IMG/VR virus record: IMGVR_UViG_3300025577_000032
Span: 1-35,324 of that record
Source of the DNA: a virus
Strand: one strand, 5' to 3'
DNA length: 35,324 nucleotides
A program made the position numbers and the translations under genes. Positions 22,872 to 34,338 of the stretch are shown one piece after another. Below the pieces are notes generated by a model that was not told the origin of the DNA, did not search any database, and was given only the letters and a program-made list of their open reading frames with translations. Numbering within the stretch: position 1 is the stretch's first letter; each line of letters starts with the position of its first letter.

Positions 22872-25406
22872 ATGAGCGTTCTTACATTCATGCAGGCGAG
22901 CAACGGTGTTCGTCTTGCAAAAGAATTCACACCTACCTCCAAAAAAAGCTACCCTCAAGTAAAGAAGTTTGACACGCATGTCTATGAAGTAGCCAACTCA
23001 TCCAGTGGCTTAGAGCATATGCATAGTCTTATGGTCACTCATGCAGCCAAAGGTCATGCTTTGCTTAGGGGTCAGCTTAAAAAACCCTTAAAAAATCAGT
23101 CTCGATCCAACCAAACACAAAAAAACCTCGTGTGTGATTGGATTACGATCGACATTGATAACCTGGATTTAGTAAAGGCGGGAGCATTTGGTGTCACACC
23201 CAATTATCCCATGTCCGGCGTTATAAGCAGAGCTAATATTCTGTTTGCAGCGGAGTACCTTGTGAAGCTTCTTCCTCAAGAGCTACACAACATAAGCTAC
23301 ATCGCAACAGCCAGTGCTTCTACTGGTATGAAGCCTGACAAGTTATCCATGCACTTGGATTTCATGCTGACTAACCCAGTACACCCTAAGACGTTAAAAG
23401 GTTGGCTTACAAAGCTAAACTTTGACAACCCTGTGTTTACTGACCAGCTTAACTTAAACAGCAACGGCGTAGCGCTCATCTTCCCTTGTGATCGCACCGT
23501 GGCAGATAACTCTAAGTTAATTTATATTGCGCCACCGGTTATGAAAGGCGTTGAGCAACGGTTAAATGACGACGACCGAATCCTTCTTGTAGAAAAGCAA
23601 GAAGCGACCGTCGACATCATGCCGATGCTTCAAGGCTGCACTGAAGAGCAGATCAAACTGCTTATCACCAAGGGTGTAAAAAAGCTGCGTAGAGACGCTG
23701 GCCTAGCTCACAAGACGCTGCAGATGCAAAGTATCAGAAGCGGCGGCAAGGTCACAGAGATCATAGCCAACCCTGACCGTGCATTATTGCAATACGCGTA
23801 TACCAACGAGTCATCAGGTTATGTCTACGCTAACATACAAGACAAACAGGGCATCATGGGCGACAGCAACGCCTACTACTGGCCCATAGACAATCCTCAA
23901 ATCGTTTACAACTTTAAAGACGAACCTCCGTTCCGAATGAAAGATGTTGACCTGGATTTCTATAACTCCATGTGTGCTCAGTTCAGTGATCAGATTACTG
24001 CAGCAAACATCCCCGTGCCTTATGTCTTTCGTGACATTTCATCCGATGAGCATTATGCACTGACGTATGACACCAACAATGACCTCATCATGAGGCTAAA
24101 TGCCACAAAAAAAACCAACCTCAAAGACTTCATGGCCAACCATGGTGAAGAGTTACCCGAACCCATCCCAGATTGGGACCGCTCGTTTGACCCACAAACT
24201 AATGTTCAGTTAGACATTGAGGGTCAGTTCGTCAACACGTACGAGCCTACCAAATTCATGCGCAACAGAGAGCTCTCTGTAGAGGATGAGCACAAGCTGG
24301 AATACGGCAGAGGATACCTTCTAAAAAAGTGCTCCCCCACCCTGTACGCAATCATGTACCACATGGTCGGGTCCAGCGATCCGGAGTTCGAGCATTTCTT
24401 CAACTGGTTTGCGTATGCATTCCAGACAAAGCAAAAGCTAACGACAGCGTGGGTGTTCACAGGTATTGAAGGAACAGGCAAAGGCCTATTCTTTCACCAA
24501 ATCATTCATCAGTTGTATGGCAAGCATGCAGGTTACAAGACATTAGAAAATGTCGAAGACCAATTTAACGACTTCCAAGAAAACACTTTGTTCTTAGTTG
24601 TTGACGAGTTCAAGCTAACCGACAGCGCCTCCTCTAACAAGATGATGAATAAACTAAAACACATGGTGACAGAAACATTCGGCACGGTGCGTGGCATGCG
24701 TCAAGCGCAACGCCAGGTTAAGTTGTACGCAAACATGTGCTTTAACTCTAACGAGATTGAAGTCATTCGTTTATCAGCTACCGACAGACGTTTCAACATC
24801 GGTAAGCGCCAAGAAGTTCCTATCTTAGCTGCTTACCCAAACATGATGAAGGATCTGACAGTCAACCGTGACAAAGAGCTGATGAACCTAGTCGAGTTTG
24901 TTAACGCGTTTGAAGCTGACCCTATCCAGGCATATCAACCCCTTGATAACAGTGCCAAGAAGCTGATGCGTGACGCATCCATGACATGGATTGACCATTT
25001 CATTACTGCCATCAAAACCAGCAACTTAGATTATTTCGTTGAAAAAATTCTCAGTGTCGACGCTTCTTTAAGTCGTGATTTTGACGTCAACATGCAGCTC
25101 AATTCAGAACGTATTGTTAAAAGCTGGGTGTATACAGAAGGTCAAGAAATAGCAGTGACTAATCAAGAGCTGTTTACCTTATGCAACGCCATTGAAAGCG
25201 GTGCGTTCAGCAAAGAGAAATTCTCGAGAATGTTAGGCAAGCGTGGCGTAGTCACACAGCGTGTTAAATGTACCGACAAAATTCGCAGAATAGGTCAGAT
25301 GAAAACATTCCGTTTATTAGATTTCGATAAGCATGAATTAATCGACCACCATTTCTCATCGACTGACAGGGAGACTATATGCCAAAACAATCCAGCACTA
25401 CATTAA
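22872..25406 (+). CDS. Primase-helicase (AEP-like primase plus SF3 helicase)
   Basis: 844 residues from ATG 22872 (GACGGGA upstream). The longer frame begins inside the promoter. The N-terminal third has WITIDIDNLD (about residue 90) and KLSMHLDFML (about 155), which fit the hhDhD and sxH motifs of archaeo-eukaryotic type primases. After a linker, the helicase has Walker A GIEGTGKG (about 530), Walker B LFLVVDEFKL (about 572), and ATDRRFNIG (about 636) as likely arginine finger. This pattern is that of D5-like SF3 helicases in phages. It should unwind and prime DNA at the origin, working with the polymerase upstream. A copy of the operator lies inside the coding region at 23223. Confidence 0.82.
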   Translation: MSVLTFMQASNGVRLAKEFTPTSKKSYPQVKKFDTHVYEVANSSSGLEHMHSLMVTHAAKGHALLRGQLKKPLKNQSRSNQTQKNLVCDWITIDIDNLDLVKAGAFGVTPNYPMSGVISRANILFAAEYLVKLLPQELHNISYIATASASTGMKPDKLSMHLDFMLTNPVHPKTLKGWLTKLNFDNPVFTDQLNLNSNGVALIFPCDRTVADNSKLIYIAPPVMKGVEQRLNDDDRILLVEKQEATVDIMPMLQGCTEEQIKLLITKGVKKLRRDAGLAHKTLQMQSIRSGGKVTEIIANPDRALLQYAYTNESSGYVYANIQDKQGIMGDSNAYYWPIDNPQIVYNFKDEPPFRMKDVDLDFYNSMCAQFSDQITAANIPVPYVFRDISSDEHYALTYDTNNDLIMRLNATKKTNLKDFMANHGEELPEPIPDWDRSFDPQTNVQLDIEGQFVNTYEPTKFMRNRELSVEDEHKLEYGRGYLLKKCSPTLYAIMYHMVGSSDPEFEHFFNWFAYAFQTKQKLTTAWVFTGIEGTGKGLFFHQIIHQLYGKHAGYKTLENVEDQFNDFQENTLFLVVDEFKLTDSASSNKMMNKLKHMVTETFGTVRGMRQAQRQVKLYANMCFNSNEIEVIRLSATDRRFNIGKRQEVPILAAYPNMMKDLTVNRDKELMNLVEFVNAFEADPIQAYQPLDNSAKKLMRDASMTWIDHFITAIKTSNLDYFVEKILSVDASLSRDFDVNMQLNSERIVKSWVYTEGQEIAVTNQELFTLCNAIESGAFSKEKFSRMLGKRGVVTQRVKCTDKIRRIGQMKTFRLLDFDKHELIDHHFSSTDRETICQNNPALH
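23223..23237 (+). promoter_or_regulatory. Intragenic operator copy in the primase-helicase gene
   Basis: ATAAGCAGAGCTAAT with TAATAT at 23234-23239, identical to the intergenic site at 32546. The codons read Ile-Ser-Arg-Ala-Asn. No -35 is evident (ATGTCC). It could block elongation when bound, like a stoperator, or be chance. Exact identity to another copy argues against chance. Confidence 0.55.
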
Positions 25407-31230: not shown

Positions 31231-31704
31231 ATGGAGCCCTCAGTAAAGAGGCCCTACCCTTTGAATGAGCATGGATACATTCGTTCCGTCCACCGCCATC
31301 TTCCTCCTGAAATGCACAAATGGAAAGTCCACGATAACTATGCTGGCGGTGTGCCTGACTGTTGGTATGCAGGCCCTGCAGGAAATATCTGGGTCGAATA
31401 CAAGTGGATTAAGTCGTTACCTAAGCGCGGCACCACAGTAATTAAACCAAACCTATCTGCACAACAATTAGCCTGGCTAATAAAAATGTCTGGACATTCG
31501 ATAAGCTGTGCTTGTATTATAGGTTGCCCAGAGGGAGGTATCGTCCTCACTGGGAAGGATGATTGGCTCGATGGAATAAGTAGAAACATGTTGAGCCTTA
31601 CCCCAGCCAAAGGTATTGCAAGCTGGCTCACACAAATCTGTATGGAGATGGAAACAGATGACTATAACCAAAGCGCCGCCCCAAAAGAGAAGCATTTCAA
31701 GTGA
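31231..31704 (+). CDS. VRR-NUC/PD-(D/E)XK endonuclease
   Basis: 157 residues from ATG 31231; an earlier TTG lies in a terminator stem. The ribosome site is poor (GGTGG is adjacent). The core reads NYAGGVPDCWYAGPAGNIWV and continues EYKWIKSLPKRG; later QQLAWLIKM. PD and VEYK supply the D...ExK catalytic set, with 'GGVPD-WY' and 'Q--WL' typical of phage VRR-NUC or endonuclease I-like enzymes. It probably cleaves branched or replication-intermediate DNA. Its last part overlaps the repressor gene by 47 bases. The repressor's own promoter lies inside it. Confidence 0.75.
   Translation: MEPSVKRPYPLNEHGYIRSVHRHLPPEMHKWKVHDNYAGGVPDCWYAGPAGNIWVEYKWIKSLPKRGTTVIKPNLSAQQLAWLIKMSGHSISCACIIGCPEGGIVLTGKDDWLDGISRNMLSLTPAKGIASWLTQICMEMETDDYNQSAAPKEKHFK
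31491..31520 (+). promoter_or_regulatory. Putative repressor promoter with operator, inside the nuclease gene
   Basis: TGGACA (31491-31496), 18-base spacer, TATTAT (31515-31520). ATAAGCTGTGCTTGT (31501-31515) matches the operator consensus at 12 of 14 defined positions. It lies 138 bases before the repressor start. It would allow the repressor to control its own synthesis. Confidence 0.55.
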
Positions 31705-32317
31705 CTCATTAGAAATGTCACGTAGGATCACTAATGTATGGAGAGCGAATAAAAACAAGTCTGGGATAGACTTAACACAACAAAAGGCGGCAGTTCGGCT
31801 TGGGGTAACCCAACCGATGTTCAGTCAAATGCTCAACGGTACAGTGTCCATCAATCCTATGATGGTCCTTAGCGTAGCATCTTTACTGCGTTGTGATCTT
31901 GGGGCTTTAGTTGGAGGTCTTCAGGAGTACAAGATTCTTCATGCTGTCAGCCCCACTACGAGTATTGAAATCCCAGTTACATTAACCCTATCGGGGAAAC
32001 CCGTGTCAGGAAAGGTAACGAAAATTATGACACACACAATCTCAGAAGCATTTGCAGTCGAGATTGATACTGATGAATACGCACCCCGCTACAACCATGG
32101 CGAGTACGCAATCATCGACCCTCTCACACAATGGGAAGTAGGTAACCAAGTTCTTGTCCGTATTGGGAAAGGCGCTTGTTTAATCCGTGTCGTTAGTAGT
32201 ATCAATGGTAATGAGGTTATTACTCACCACCCAACAGTTGTCGGTGTAAGCACCACAATAGATTTGACTGATCCAACGATCACCGTTCGTGGTGTGATTC
32301 GCGGGGTTCAATTTTAA
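31658..32317 (+). CDS. CI-like repressor (XRE helix-turn-helix, S24-like domain)
   Basis: 219 residues from ATG 31658, with GGAGATGGA before it. An earlier TTG start has no such site. Residues 28-70 (LTQQKAAVRLGVTQPMFSQM then LNGTVSINPMMVLSVASLLR) form an XRE-type helix-turn-helix. Residues 90-219 fit the S24/LexA fold: AFAVEIDTDEYAPRYNHGEY followed by AIIDP and NQVLVRIGKGACLIRV. In active members 'GDSMxP' supplies Ser; here the place reads DEYAP. The Lys normally before R is Ile. So self-cleavage is unlikely and the domain may act only in dimerisation. It lies in the same direction as int, without a divergent cro. It is the best candidate to bind the 15-bp palindromes. Confidence 0.82.
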   Translation: MTITKAPPQKRSISSDSLEMSRRITNVWRANKNKSGIDLTQQKAAVRLGVTQPMFSQMLNGTVSINPMMVLSVASLLRCDLGALVGGLQEYKILHAVSPTTSIEIPVTLTLSGKPVSGKVTKIMTHTISEAFAVEIDTDEYAPRYNHGEYAIIDPLTQWEVGNQVLVRIGKGACLIRVVSSINGNEVITHHPTVVGVSTTIDLTDPTITVRGVIRGVQF

Positions 32318-32575: not shown

Positions 32576-32791
32576 ATGGTTAATAAACCGGCCCATTACC
32601 AATCCGACACAGGGGTTGAATGCATCGATGCCATACGTGCTGCACTAGGACCAGAAGGATTCAGGGCCCACTGCAAAGCGACCGTAATTAAATACCTATG
32701 GAGGGAAAAATGGGACACCGCTGAGGATGCCGAAAAGGCAGCGTGGTATCTCAATAAACTGGTGGAGTCCTATGAAGATGATGTTAGATAG
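32576..32791 (+). CDS. DUF3310 (SaV-like) protein
   Basis: 71 residues from ATG 32576, or 75 from ATG 32564. The later start is preferred because the promoter at 32534 would start its transcript between the two, and AAAGAAG precedes it. The sequence NKPAHYQSDTGVECIDAIRA, then GFRAHCKATVIKYLWR and AEKAAWYLNKLVE is the full DUF3310 pattern ('HY-----ECID-I-------F---GN-IKYLWR---K---ED--KA-WYL-KL'). This short helical protein is common in phages. It is proposed to have a nucleotide-related role, but this is not established. It overlaps xis by 20 bases. Confidence 0.85.
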   Translation: MVNKPAHYQSDTGVECIDAIRAALGPEGFRAHCKATVIKYLWREKWDTAEDAEKAAWYLNKLVESYEDDVR

Positions 32792-33095
32792 AGTTACAAT
32801 CAGAAAGTTTTCGGAGTTGTCTGGCTACACAGAAGTCGCTATACGATCTAAAATAAGCGAAGGTGTATGGCAAGAGAATGAGGTATTCTCAAGAGCACCC
32901 GACAACAGGATACTAATCAGCCTTGGAGGGTACGAAGCATGGGTAGACCGAAGCAGCAGTTTACAAACGTCAGGGCAGTCTCTAAAAGTACGATCGAAAT
33001 TGTCTTCCGCTACCCAACGCCCAAAGATCGCCAGCGCGAAACGATCAAACTTGAGCCCACCCCCGCTAACCTCAAACGGTGTTACGTCCACCTAG
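32772..33095 (+). CDS. xis: Excisionase-like protein overlapping the integrase gene
   Basis: 107 residues from ATG 32772 (GGTGGAG five bases before; ATG 32778 and 32781 are alternatives). The first 58 residues, VTIRKFSELSGYTEVAIRSK then ISEGVWQENEVFSRAPDNRI followed by LISLGGYEAWV, are a winged-helix excisionase domain of the type placed before DUF3596 integrases. The last 50 residues (Ser/Lys-rich) are read in a second frame inside the integrase gene for 157 bases. Excisionases bend attachment-site DNA and favour prophage excision. The overlap should couple translation of int to that of xis. Confidence 0.78.
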   Translation: MKMMLDRVTIRKFSELSGYTEVAIRSKISEGVWQENEVFSRAPDNRILISLGGYEAWVDRSSSLQTSGQSLKVRSKLSSATQRPKIASAKRSNLSPPPLTSNGVTST

Positions 33096-34129
33096 CTCAA
33101 ATTAATGAAGCGATTAAAGCGGGAACGTTTGATTACATAACGACCTTTCCTGACTCACCTAGAGCCAAGCTTTATTCAAGCCGGTACACGTTCGGCACCT
33201 TTTTAAAAGAGTGGCTTGATGCCAACTACAACATCGGCGTAGGCACCCGCATCTTTTACCATCGAATCATCCATGGCCAAGTACTCAATACTAAACTGGC
33301 TGAGGTGCGCGTGGCTGAATTAACGTGGCCCATGATTAAAGATTGGGCGTTAGCAATGGACGTTCTGCCAAGTACTCGCTCTCAGCGTATCGCTGTAATG
33401 CGTGATGCGCTCAATGAAGCGGTAGAAGAAGGCATTATTGCTGTAAACCCCCTACTCGGCAAGAAACTGAAGAAACAAACGGTCGTTATAAAGTCTGAGG
33501 CAACGCGCATTGATCCTTTCTCTTGGGAAGAGCGTGACGCCATCATCAGAGCCGCACCTAGACAGTTCGGCTTACAGCTCATGTTCCAGTTTTTTACAGG
33601 ATTGCGCCCCGAAGAAATCCGAGGGCTATGCTGGAGCCGCGTCAATTTTGTCAGCACTACTGTTTTAATAGATCAAGTATTAACAGATGCTAGCCCACAC
33701 AAATTCCTACCTCCTAAATCACAATCTTCTTTTAGAACAGTTGAACTTGTCGACCCTGCGATGCAGTGCTTGTTAGCTTACAAAGAATATTCTTTTCATC
33801 GAGCCACCCCACCTAATGACATTGTGTTTATGAACCCACTCACAAGTCTGCCTTGGAGTACGACAAATAAAATACGCGCACAGTGGATCTCCGCTTTAAA
33901 AAAAGCAGGAGTGCGGTACAGAGTGCCTTATCAAACTCGACACACTTACGCATCAACAATGTTACAAGTTGGGGAAGATCTGACTTATATTGCGAAACAG
34001 ATGGGCCATGCTGACAGTGCGACCACGCTAAAATATTACGCTCGGTTTATTCAACAAACAGGAGCAAAGCATGGGTCTAAATTAGAGGAAGCATATAGGA
34101 AGCAAATCGAGGATCAGGTACATGATTGA
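32939..34129 (+). CDS. int: Tyrosine site-specific integrase (DUF3596 arm domain)
   Basis: 396 residues, ATG 32939 with GGAGGG before it. The arm-binding domain (IEIVFRYPTPKDRQRETIKL and later KAGTFDYITTFPDSPRA) is of the DUF3596 type. The core-binding helical domain is about residues 85-175. In the catalytic domain TGLRPEEIRGLCW gives the first Arg (about residue 224), TRHTYAS the second Arg set (about 334), QMGHADSATT the His, and LKYYARF the Tyr (about 366). The catalytic set looks complete. It inserts the phage at a tRNA gene. The probable attP begins about 60 bases downstream. Expression is from the operator promoter at 32534. Confidence 0.93.
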   Translation: MGRPKQQFTNVRAVSKSTIEIVFRYPTPKDRQRETIKLEPTPANLKRCYVHLAQINEAIKAGTFDYITTFPDSPRAKLYSSRYTFGTFLKEWLDANYNIGVGTRIFYHRIIHGQVLNTKLAEVRVAELTWPMIKDWALAMDVLPSTRSQRIAVMRDALNEAVEEGIIAVNPLLGKKLKKQTVVIKSEATRIDPFSWEERDAIIRAAPRQFGLQLMFQFFTGLRPEEIRGLCWSRVNFVSTTVLIDQVLTDASPHKFLPPKSQSSFRTVELVDPAMQCLLAYKEYSFHRATPPNDIVFMNPLTSLPWSTTNKIRAQWISALKKAGVRYRVPYQTRHTYASTMLQVGEDLTYIAKQMGHADSATTLKYYARFIQQTGAKHGSKLEEAYRKQIEDQVHD

Positions 34130-34136
34130 GTACCGA

Positions 34137-34156
34137 TTGCCAGCATTTTGCCAGCA
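34137..34156 (+). repeat. Direct repeats TTGCCAGCA, candidate integrase arm sites
   Basis: Two copies (34137-34145 and 34148-34156), offset by 11 bases, about one helical turn. Related TGCCAG copies occur at 34264-34273 (reverse), 34309-34314 and 34321-34326 on the other side of the tRNA-like core. Repeats flanking a core on both sides are typical of arm-type integrase binding sites. Confidence 0.65.
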
Positions 34157-34167
34157 TCTAAAACAAT

Positions 34168-34186
34168 CTCCTTATAAATCAAGGAG
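34168..34186 (-). terminator. Terminator-like hairpin beyond the tRNA remnant
   Basis: CTCCTT, loop ATAAATC, AAGGAG. Read on the minus strand, it follows the CCA end and is followed by ATTGTTTT, so it would end transcription of the tRNA gene re-formed after integration. Confidence 0.55.
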
Positions 34187-34248
34187 TTAAATGGTGCGGA
34201 CGGAGAGACTCGATCTTCTATATTGGACTTTAACTCGTTGATTTATAA
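34172..34248. repeat. Inverted repeat, 20-bp arms, around the attP core
   Basis: TTATAAATCAAGGAGTTAAA (34172-34191) and TTTAACTCGTTGATTTATAA (34229-34248) match at 19 of 20 positions as reverse complements. The 37 bases between them contain the tRNA-derived core. They may be integrase binding sites or the ends of an extended core. Confidence 0.7.
34192..34212 (-). other. Putative attP core: 3' end of a tRNA gene
   Basis: Read on the minus strand, this stretch is the end of a tRNA: part of a T loop (CGAGT), T-stem side CTCTC, acceptor side CGTCCGC, discriminator A and CCA. It would complete a host tRNA starting GCGGACG; a leucine tRNA is likely from that acceptor, but the isotype is not certain. 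It lies 62 bases after the integrase stop. No whole tRNA is present, so it is a remnant serving as recombination site. Phage genes lie on both sides, so this is an attP, not an attL or attR. Confidence 0.75.
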
Positions 34249-34257
34249 CGAATTAAT

Positions 34258-34333
34258 AAAAAAGCTGGCAGGAAAATCGAGGTGAATACCGGTAGTTTAC
34301 GGTCGGTTTGCCAGGATTCCTGCCAGCTTTTTT
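34258..34333. terminator. Bidirectional terminator between int and the late genes
   Basis: AAAAAAGCTGGCAGGAA (34258-34274) and TTCCTGCCAGCTTTTTT (34317-34333) are perfectly complementary 17-base arms with a 42-base loop. A and T runs serve both directions. It lies between convergent units: int from the left, and PhoH with the small membrane gene from the right. The stem also contains TGCCAG integrase-site candidates. Confidence 0.8.
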
Positions 34334-34338
34334 AAGCC

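Follow-up and report, generated by a model that had tools for sequence, protein, structure and literature searches.

The xis and int Genes

The window, that is, the whole stretch of 35,324 nucleotides of viral DNA analysed here, carries near its right end an excisionase gene, an integrase gene and a compact group of repeats built around the 3′ end of a tRNA gene. The first gene, xis (32781–33095, plus strand), encodes an excisionase of 104 amino acids identified by its match to phrog_9668 (E 7e-20); no match was found in Pfam or NCBIfam. The second, int (32939–34129, plus strand), encodes a tyrosine integrase of 396 amino acids, recognized by profile matches and by its fold, with an N-terminal arm-binding domain (PF12167, E 5e-14, passing the cut-off) and a catalytic domain (PF00589). 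In its last 157 nt, xis runs into the beginning of int, which is read in a different frame. This arrangement is well kept: of the 15 sequences compared, 14 have the xis start 158 nt ahead of int, and all 15 have an open overlap of 115–157 nt. The tail of Xis and the arm-binding sheet of Int are encoded by the same DNA. Just upstream, and overlapping the xis start with its end, is a gene for a small DUF3310/nucleotide-kinase-like protein (PF11753, 32534–32791). Further to the left, at 31616–32317, a repressor-like protein (phrog_4, with an HTH and a weak S24 peptidase match) is encoded, which is consistent with a temperate phage.

The AlphaFold model of Int (mean pLDDT 89.5) predicts strands at residues 11–15, 18–24 and 31–36 followed by a helix at 42–61, and its fold matches in the PDB are Tn1549 Int and lambda Int. 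Integrases of the IntBPP-1 subgroup (PF12167/DUF3596) possess an arm domain of three strands and one helix, and the subgroup is marked by a strand insertion in the catalytic domain and a weak first catalytic histidine (PMC8138268). As judged by the profile match and the model, Int has the arm domain that defines this subgroup, with the same three strands and one helix. The presumed position of the first catalytic histidine is Tyr331, in PYQTRH, an apparent replacement that is invariant in 66 sequences. The IntBPP-1 domain occurs in gamma- and betaproteobacterial relatives. Int belongs to a marine phage branch that shares no more than 40% identity with those relatives that were found in genomes, and the arm-site words switch within this branch. 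Tn1549 Int is the best PDB match in both fold and sequence, but Tn1549 and Tn916 are conjugative transposons, which choose their targets by other rules.

The Core Is the 3′ End of a tRNA-Leu(UAG)

The attP core begins 62 bp past the int stop codon. It consists of 22 bp at 34192–34213, TGGTGCGGACGGAGAGACTCGA on the plus strand; read on the minus strand, these are the last bases of a tRNA, from the T-loop to the terminal CCA. ARAGORN called no complete tRNA in the window. In two gammaproteobacterial genomes, however, tRNA-Leu(UAG) genes called by ARAGORN close with the same 22 bases, as does tRNA-Leu(UAG) in many prophage contigs of other families. The core is therefore identical to the tRNA-Leu(UAG) 3′ ends of other genomes, as expected of a host attB. 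The first-pass annotation, made from the letters alone, had seen a minus-strand tRNA end with CCA at this place and staked its reading on the existence of a bacterial tRNA with this 3′ end; tRNA-Leu(UAG) is such a tRNA. All 28 viral relatives first found keep the core, one of them (L015) with a single G-to-A change. Several unrelated contigs carrying other tRNA-Leu(UAG) prophages share the 22-bp core, although the sequences that flank it differ from those of the window.

Just beyond the core block most relatives have a T where the tRNA has an A (plus strand; tRNA position T54), and L007 and L011 retain the tRNA base. Because identity with the host stops there, the crossover was placed in the T-loop, where it probably occurs. 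The int-proximal flank of the core corresponds to the region downstream of the tRNA CCA, so that after integration int and the regenerated tRNA would stand tail-to-tail. In bacterial genomes, several distant integrases (33–40% identity) lie in this way next to tRNA-Ser, tRNA-Leu or tmRNA genes. The search of bacterial genomes for the core that had been suggested at first pass returned the tRNA but neither the host species of this phage nor an integrated close relative: the exact core is uncommon (2 of 369 genomes in a sample of the bacterial class), which did not pinpoint the host, and the genome scan gave only distant integrases, at most 40% identical. As no integrated copy of the close family was found, attL, attR and the exact crossover were not seen.

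An Inverted Repeat Formed by Two IHF-Type Sites

The core is bracketed by two inverted arms, 34172–34191 and 34229–34248, that pair at 19 of 20 positions, a score that was not reached once when the 221-bp region was dinucleotide-shuffled 300 times. Each arm contains one match to WATCAANNNNTTR, the IHF consensus. The integrase-side match is AATCAAGGAGTTA (34177–34189, plus strand), recognized by consensus and conserved position, and the PhoH-side match is AATCAACGAGTTA, found by consensus on the minus strand (34231–34243). The only other place in the 35-kb window with WATCAANNNNTTR is at 24933 on the plus strand, overlapped by a minus-strand match at 24936. In 19 distinct attPs, the exact consensus was present in the left flank of 16 and in the right flank of 17, and the remaining 3 and 2, respectively, have a one-mismatch form, so both flanks carry an IHF-type site at no more than one mismatch in 19/19. 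Random 40-mers from the same contigs contain the exact consensus in 0.8% of cases and reach it with at most one mismatch in 4.6%. Moreover, among the 15 distant attL-like loci that have a tRNA or tmRNA beside int, 10 show the exact consensus at one of two fixed distances from the tRNA end, with or without a hairpin. The consensus suggests that IHF binds at both sites.

In most attPs the left site stays at 15 bp ahead of the core. The window group, L005–L007 and L011 have the right site at +39 on the minus strand, and other relatives have it at about +50, on one strand or the other. A functional palindrome, acting as a cruciform or as paired binding sites around the core, would account for a match so far from chance expectation in the window. 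However, it is absent in most relatives, where the right site has the opposite orientation or stands at another distance, and even the nearly identical L005–L007 have already lost part of the arm match; only the IHF consensus within each arm persists. We consider a functional palindrome very unlikely, and since the right-hand site changes orientation among relatives, the pairing appears to be incidental. The 20-bp repeat that was described at first pass is thus real in the window, but as a unit of its own it was rejected, because the orientation and the distance of its right-hand member vary, and it is better read as two IHF-type sites. On the sequences compared, a 19/20 palindrome requires that the two sites point at one another and happen to have the same sequence.

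Five Putative Arm Sites Identify an attP on Unintegrated Phage DNA

The word TGCCAG is found 17 times in the 35 kb on both strands, and five of these units, all of them already recognized at first pass, lie at the attP outside the inverted arms. Two are on the integrase side (34138–34143 and 34149–34154, plus strand) and three on the other (34265–34270, inverted, on the minus strand; 34309–34314 and 34321–34326, plus strand), and this layout of two and three repeats around the core is conserved in the relatives. The last unit is followed by a T-tract and forms the right edge of the cassette described below, with relatives diverging just after it. By their number and conserved layout, the TGCCAG units are putative integrase arm sites. 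The two outer right-hand units are also part of a perfect 18-nt inverted pair (34257–34274 and 34317–34334), which none of 300 shuffles matched. The pair lies in the space that separates the convergent int and PhoH genes and is bounded by an A-tract and a T-tract. From its sequence it could also be a two-way terminator, though the loop is as long as 42 nt; relatives such as L008 do not keep it as an inverted pair.

In the window xis and int are on the left of the attP, and a PhoH gene is on the right. PhoH is also a bacterial gene family, and the contig might accordingly be the end of an integrated prophage, an attL or attR with host DNA on the PhoH side. The PhoH of the window, however, is a member of a phage family (phrog_170, E 3e-73), the right side continues into tail-protein and virion genes in L005 and L024, and L032 has a phrog_704 exonuclease gene in the place of PhoH. 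In no relative whose right side was examined is it host DNA, which agrees with the first-pass view that phage genes stand on both sides. The arm sites provide an independent argument: in the window and its close relatives they are present on both sides of the core, a trait that only an attP has. An integrated prophage end is extremely improbable on these grounds, and the layout identifies the region as an attP on unintegrated phage DNA. The same annotation had proposed a free or circular phage, of which the free state is supported. A circular contig was considered and discarded, as there is no terminal repeat in the window. The window genome is incomplete, since L005 continues beyond its right end into sequence that has no counterpart in the window. 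No DNA match to the right 7.3 kb of the window was found in phage records, and the matches of these records to the att region were short and weak only.

Comparison with Lambda and Proposed Mechanism

The attP of phage lambda is recombined by a bivalent integrase and has five arm sites over two arms, with IHF sites between the core and the arms, and its excisionase gene is directly upstream of int (PMC4880445). All of this resembles the present locus. Unlike in lambda, the core is the 3′ end of a tRNA gene, the arm words are different, one IHF site per arm is recognized and xis and int have a long overlap (115–157 nt). Those features of a lambda-type attP that can be tested in a sequence, namely an integrase with an arm domain, a core identical to a candidate attB, repeated arm sites on both sides of the core, the IHF consensus between core and arms and an excisionase, were found here, and by them the site is a predicted lambda-type attP.

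The scheme that follows takes every protein-DNA step from the lambda precedent, in which the bending of each arm by IHF lets Int subunits span arm and core sites (PMC4880445). The region is very probably the attP of a temperate phage, placed at the end of a xis-int-attP cassette, at which Int, IHF and Xis would act in the lambda manner on tRNA-Leu(UAG). The core-binding and catalytic domains of Int would bind the 3′ end of the tRNA gene and its N-terminal sheet the five repeated arm sites. To the left and to the right of the core, host IHF would bend the DNA at a single site, and Int would then bridge arm and core sites. On integration, the int-side phage copy of the 3′ end would be joined to the 5′ part of the host tRNA-Leu(UAG) gene, which leaves the tRNA whole, and Xis would reshape the complex and drive excision. 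The arm words of the relatives change together with the sheet that is predicted to read them. From the anatomy, conservation, covariation and mosaic borders observed in the sequences we infer Int and IHF binding, bridging, recombination and the control of direction.

A Probable Mosaic Cassette with Covarying Arm Words and Integrase Sheet

Directly beyond the last arm unit the sequences part, and at least three different neighbours follow on the right. Past the T-tract these are a PhoH module, an exonuclease module and a third module; position 34335 and the homologous points in L008, L013, L017, L024 and L032 form a recurrent mosaic junction. On the left, similarity in six relatives starts at 32781, which is the xis start codon. 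Because similarity starts at xis on one side and ends after the last arm unit on the other, the exchange unit is probably a xis-int-attP cassette of about 1.55 kb (32781–34335).

Within this cassette the arm word varies. TGCCAG is used in the window, L008, L012 and L013, TGTCAG in L011, TGTCCA in L020, CCGCAG in L024 and L030, GGTCAC in L026–L028 and TGTCAC in L246. Arm units differ by a mean of 0.52 of 7 positions within a phage vs. 2.83 of 7 between phages. There are thus at least six natural arm words on one attP layout, with a constant core and similar arm spacing, and they are matched to differences in about 25 residues of Int. In a sample of few lineages, and in a test that is not a phylogenetic one, the distance between arm words correlated with the distance in Int residues 14–37 given the rest of Int (partial Mantel r = 0.63, p = 0.0002), while its correlation with the rest of Int given residues 14–37 was not significant (p 0.14). 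Tracking of the arm word, the divergence between L013 and L020 and the AlphaFold model all point to int codons 14–38 (32978–33052, plus strand), which encode the predicted three-stranded sheet (11–15, 18–24, 31–36), as a specificity patch. At residue 20, Glu goes with CAG at word positions 4–6, Gln with CCA and Ser mostly with CAC. Only about nine distant prophages have clear int-side repeats; in these, Glu20 occurs with CAG in L053, L060, L092 and L095, and by eye in L035 and L110. L089 (Glu, CAAC) and L107 (Thr, CAGC) are exceptions, and the residue-20 rule is consequently a tendency only.

The relatives L013 and L020 offer the closest view of a switch. Their int genes are identical at nt 1–39, about 65% identical at nt 40–115, and mostly 80–100% identical in the rest, except for a short indel region near nt 870. 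Between them all five arm units change from TGCCAG to TGTCCA with places and spacing unchanged, and the attP columns that differ are concentrated in the arm units (15/30 vs. 39/210 elsewhere, p 3.6e-4). The core and the IHF sites are retained in this pair while the sheet-coding patch of about 75 nt and all the arm sites differ. The patch also rewrites the tail of Xis, because xis overlaps that stretch. In L008 and L011 a divergent Int N-terminus is followed by an identical stretch; the arm columns are not enriched for substitution in this pair or in that of the window and L011.

Covariation of this kind might stem from the shared ancestry of whole cassettes instead of matched recognition. The independent lineages are few and the matching is one of sequences, which leaves some room for common descent. 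Against it, the association between arm word and residues 14–37 survives removal of the rest of Int, L013 and L020 are otherwise similar cassettes that changed mainly in the patch and the arm sites, and the changed segment coincides with the predicted three-stranded sheet. We therefore regard shared ancestry as a rather unlikely sole cause and prefer matched recognition. A further proposal, which we offer tentatively and hold to be somewhat more doubtful than probable, is that arm words are exchangeable private dialects: phages with the same tRNA-Leu(UAG) target would retain the core, the IHF sites and most of Int and swap a sheet of about 25 residues, in DNA that also codes for the Xis tail, along with the five arm sites. 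The Int and Xis of each phage would then be confined to its own prophage, even where several phages use one attB. Arm sites help set the direction in which lambda-type integrases work. Insulation between phages sharing the tRNA-Leu(UAG) target may be the reason for word switching. To our knowledge, the reading of a DNA word by an arm-binding sheet is known for few proteins. A search of the literature, with most subscription papers outside its reach, gave no matching report on the coevolution of arm words. The coordinated switching is the part of this analysis that deserves follow-up, as the recognition rules and the insulation idea become open to direct binding and recombination tests.

A Terminator-Like Stem Downstream of the tRNA End

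A terminator-like stem was identified by a stem scan and folding just downstream of the tRNA CCA (34168–34186, minus strand), where it overlaps the left IHF-type site. It has seven pairs and a T-rich tail. The first-pass annotation had noticed it and proposed that integration restores the tRNA together with a terminator. The tRNA 3′ end would be regenerated in the scheme given above; the stem is present, and its role as a terminator is a more delicate matter. It may be a terminator, nested with the IHF site, that the phage brings in place of the one which insertion separates from the host tRNA gene. Most of the 15 sequences compared have a stem and T-rich tail immediately past the CCA, shifted registers pair less than the true one, and similar hairpins enclosing the IHF consensus beside tRNA-Ser are seen in the distant L079, L080 and L108. 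On the other hand, the single terminator-like match is near the chance expectation of 0.7 in the scanned region, and its folding z in the window is only about −2. The seven pairs are formed in 81.6% of cells vs. 79.1 expected from shuffles, and covariation is not above that of shuffles (0.210 vs. 0.208). The stem is missing from L246 and weak or altered in L024 and L028, the IHF-type site persists in relatives without it, and the hairpin is missing from several distant attLs that have an IHF site. From these comparisons it is plausible that the phage supplies a tRNA terminator nested in the IHF site, with chances that we put slightly short of even. The literature search, again with most subscription papers outside it, gave no matching report of IHF sites nested in tRNA terminators. 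The clearest IHF site nested in a terminator-like stem is that of L079, where a strong hairpin (z −6.0) is located about 70–115 bp past the int stop codon, beside tRNA-Ser, with an exact IHF consensus inside.
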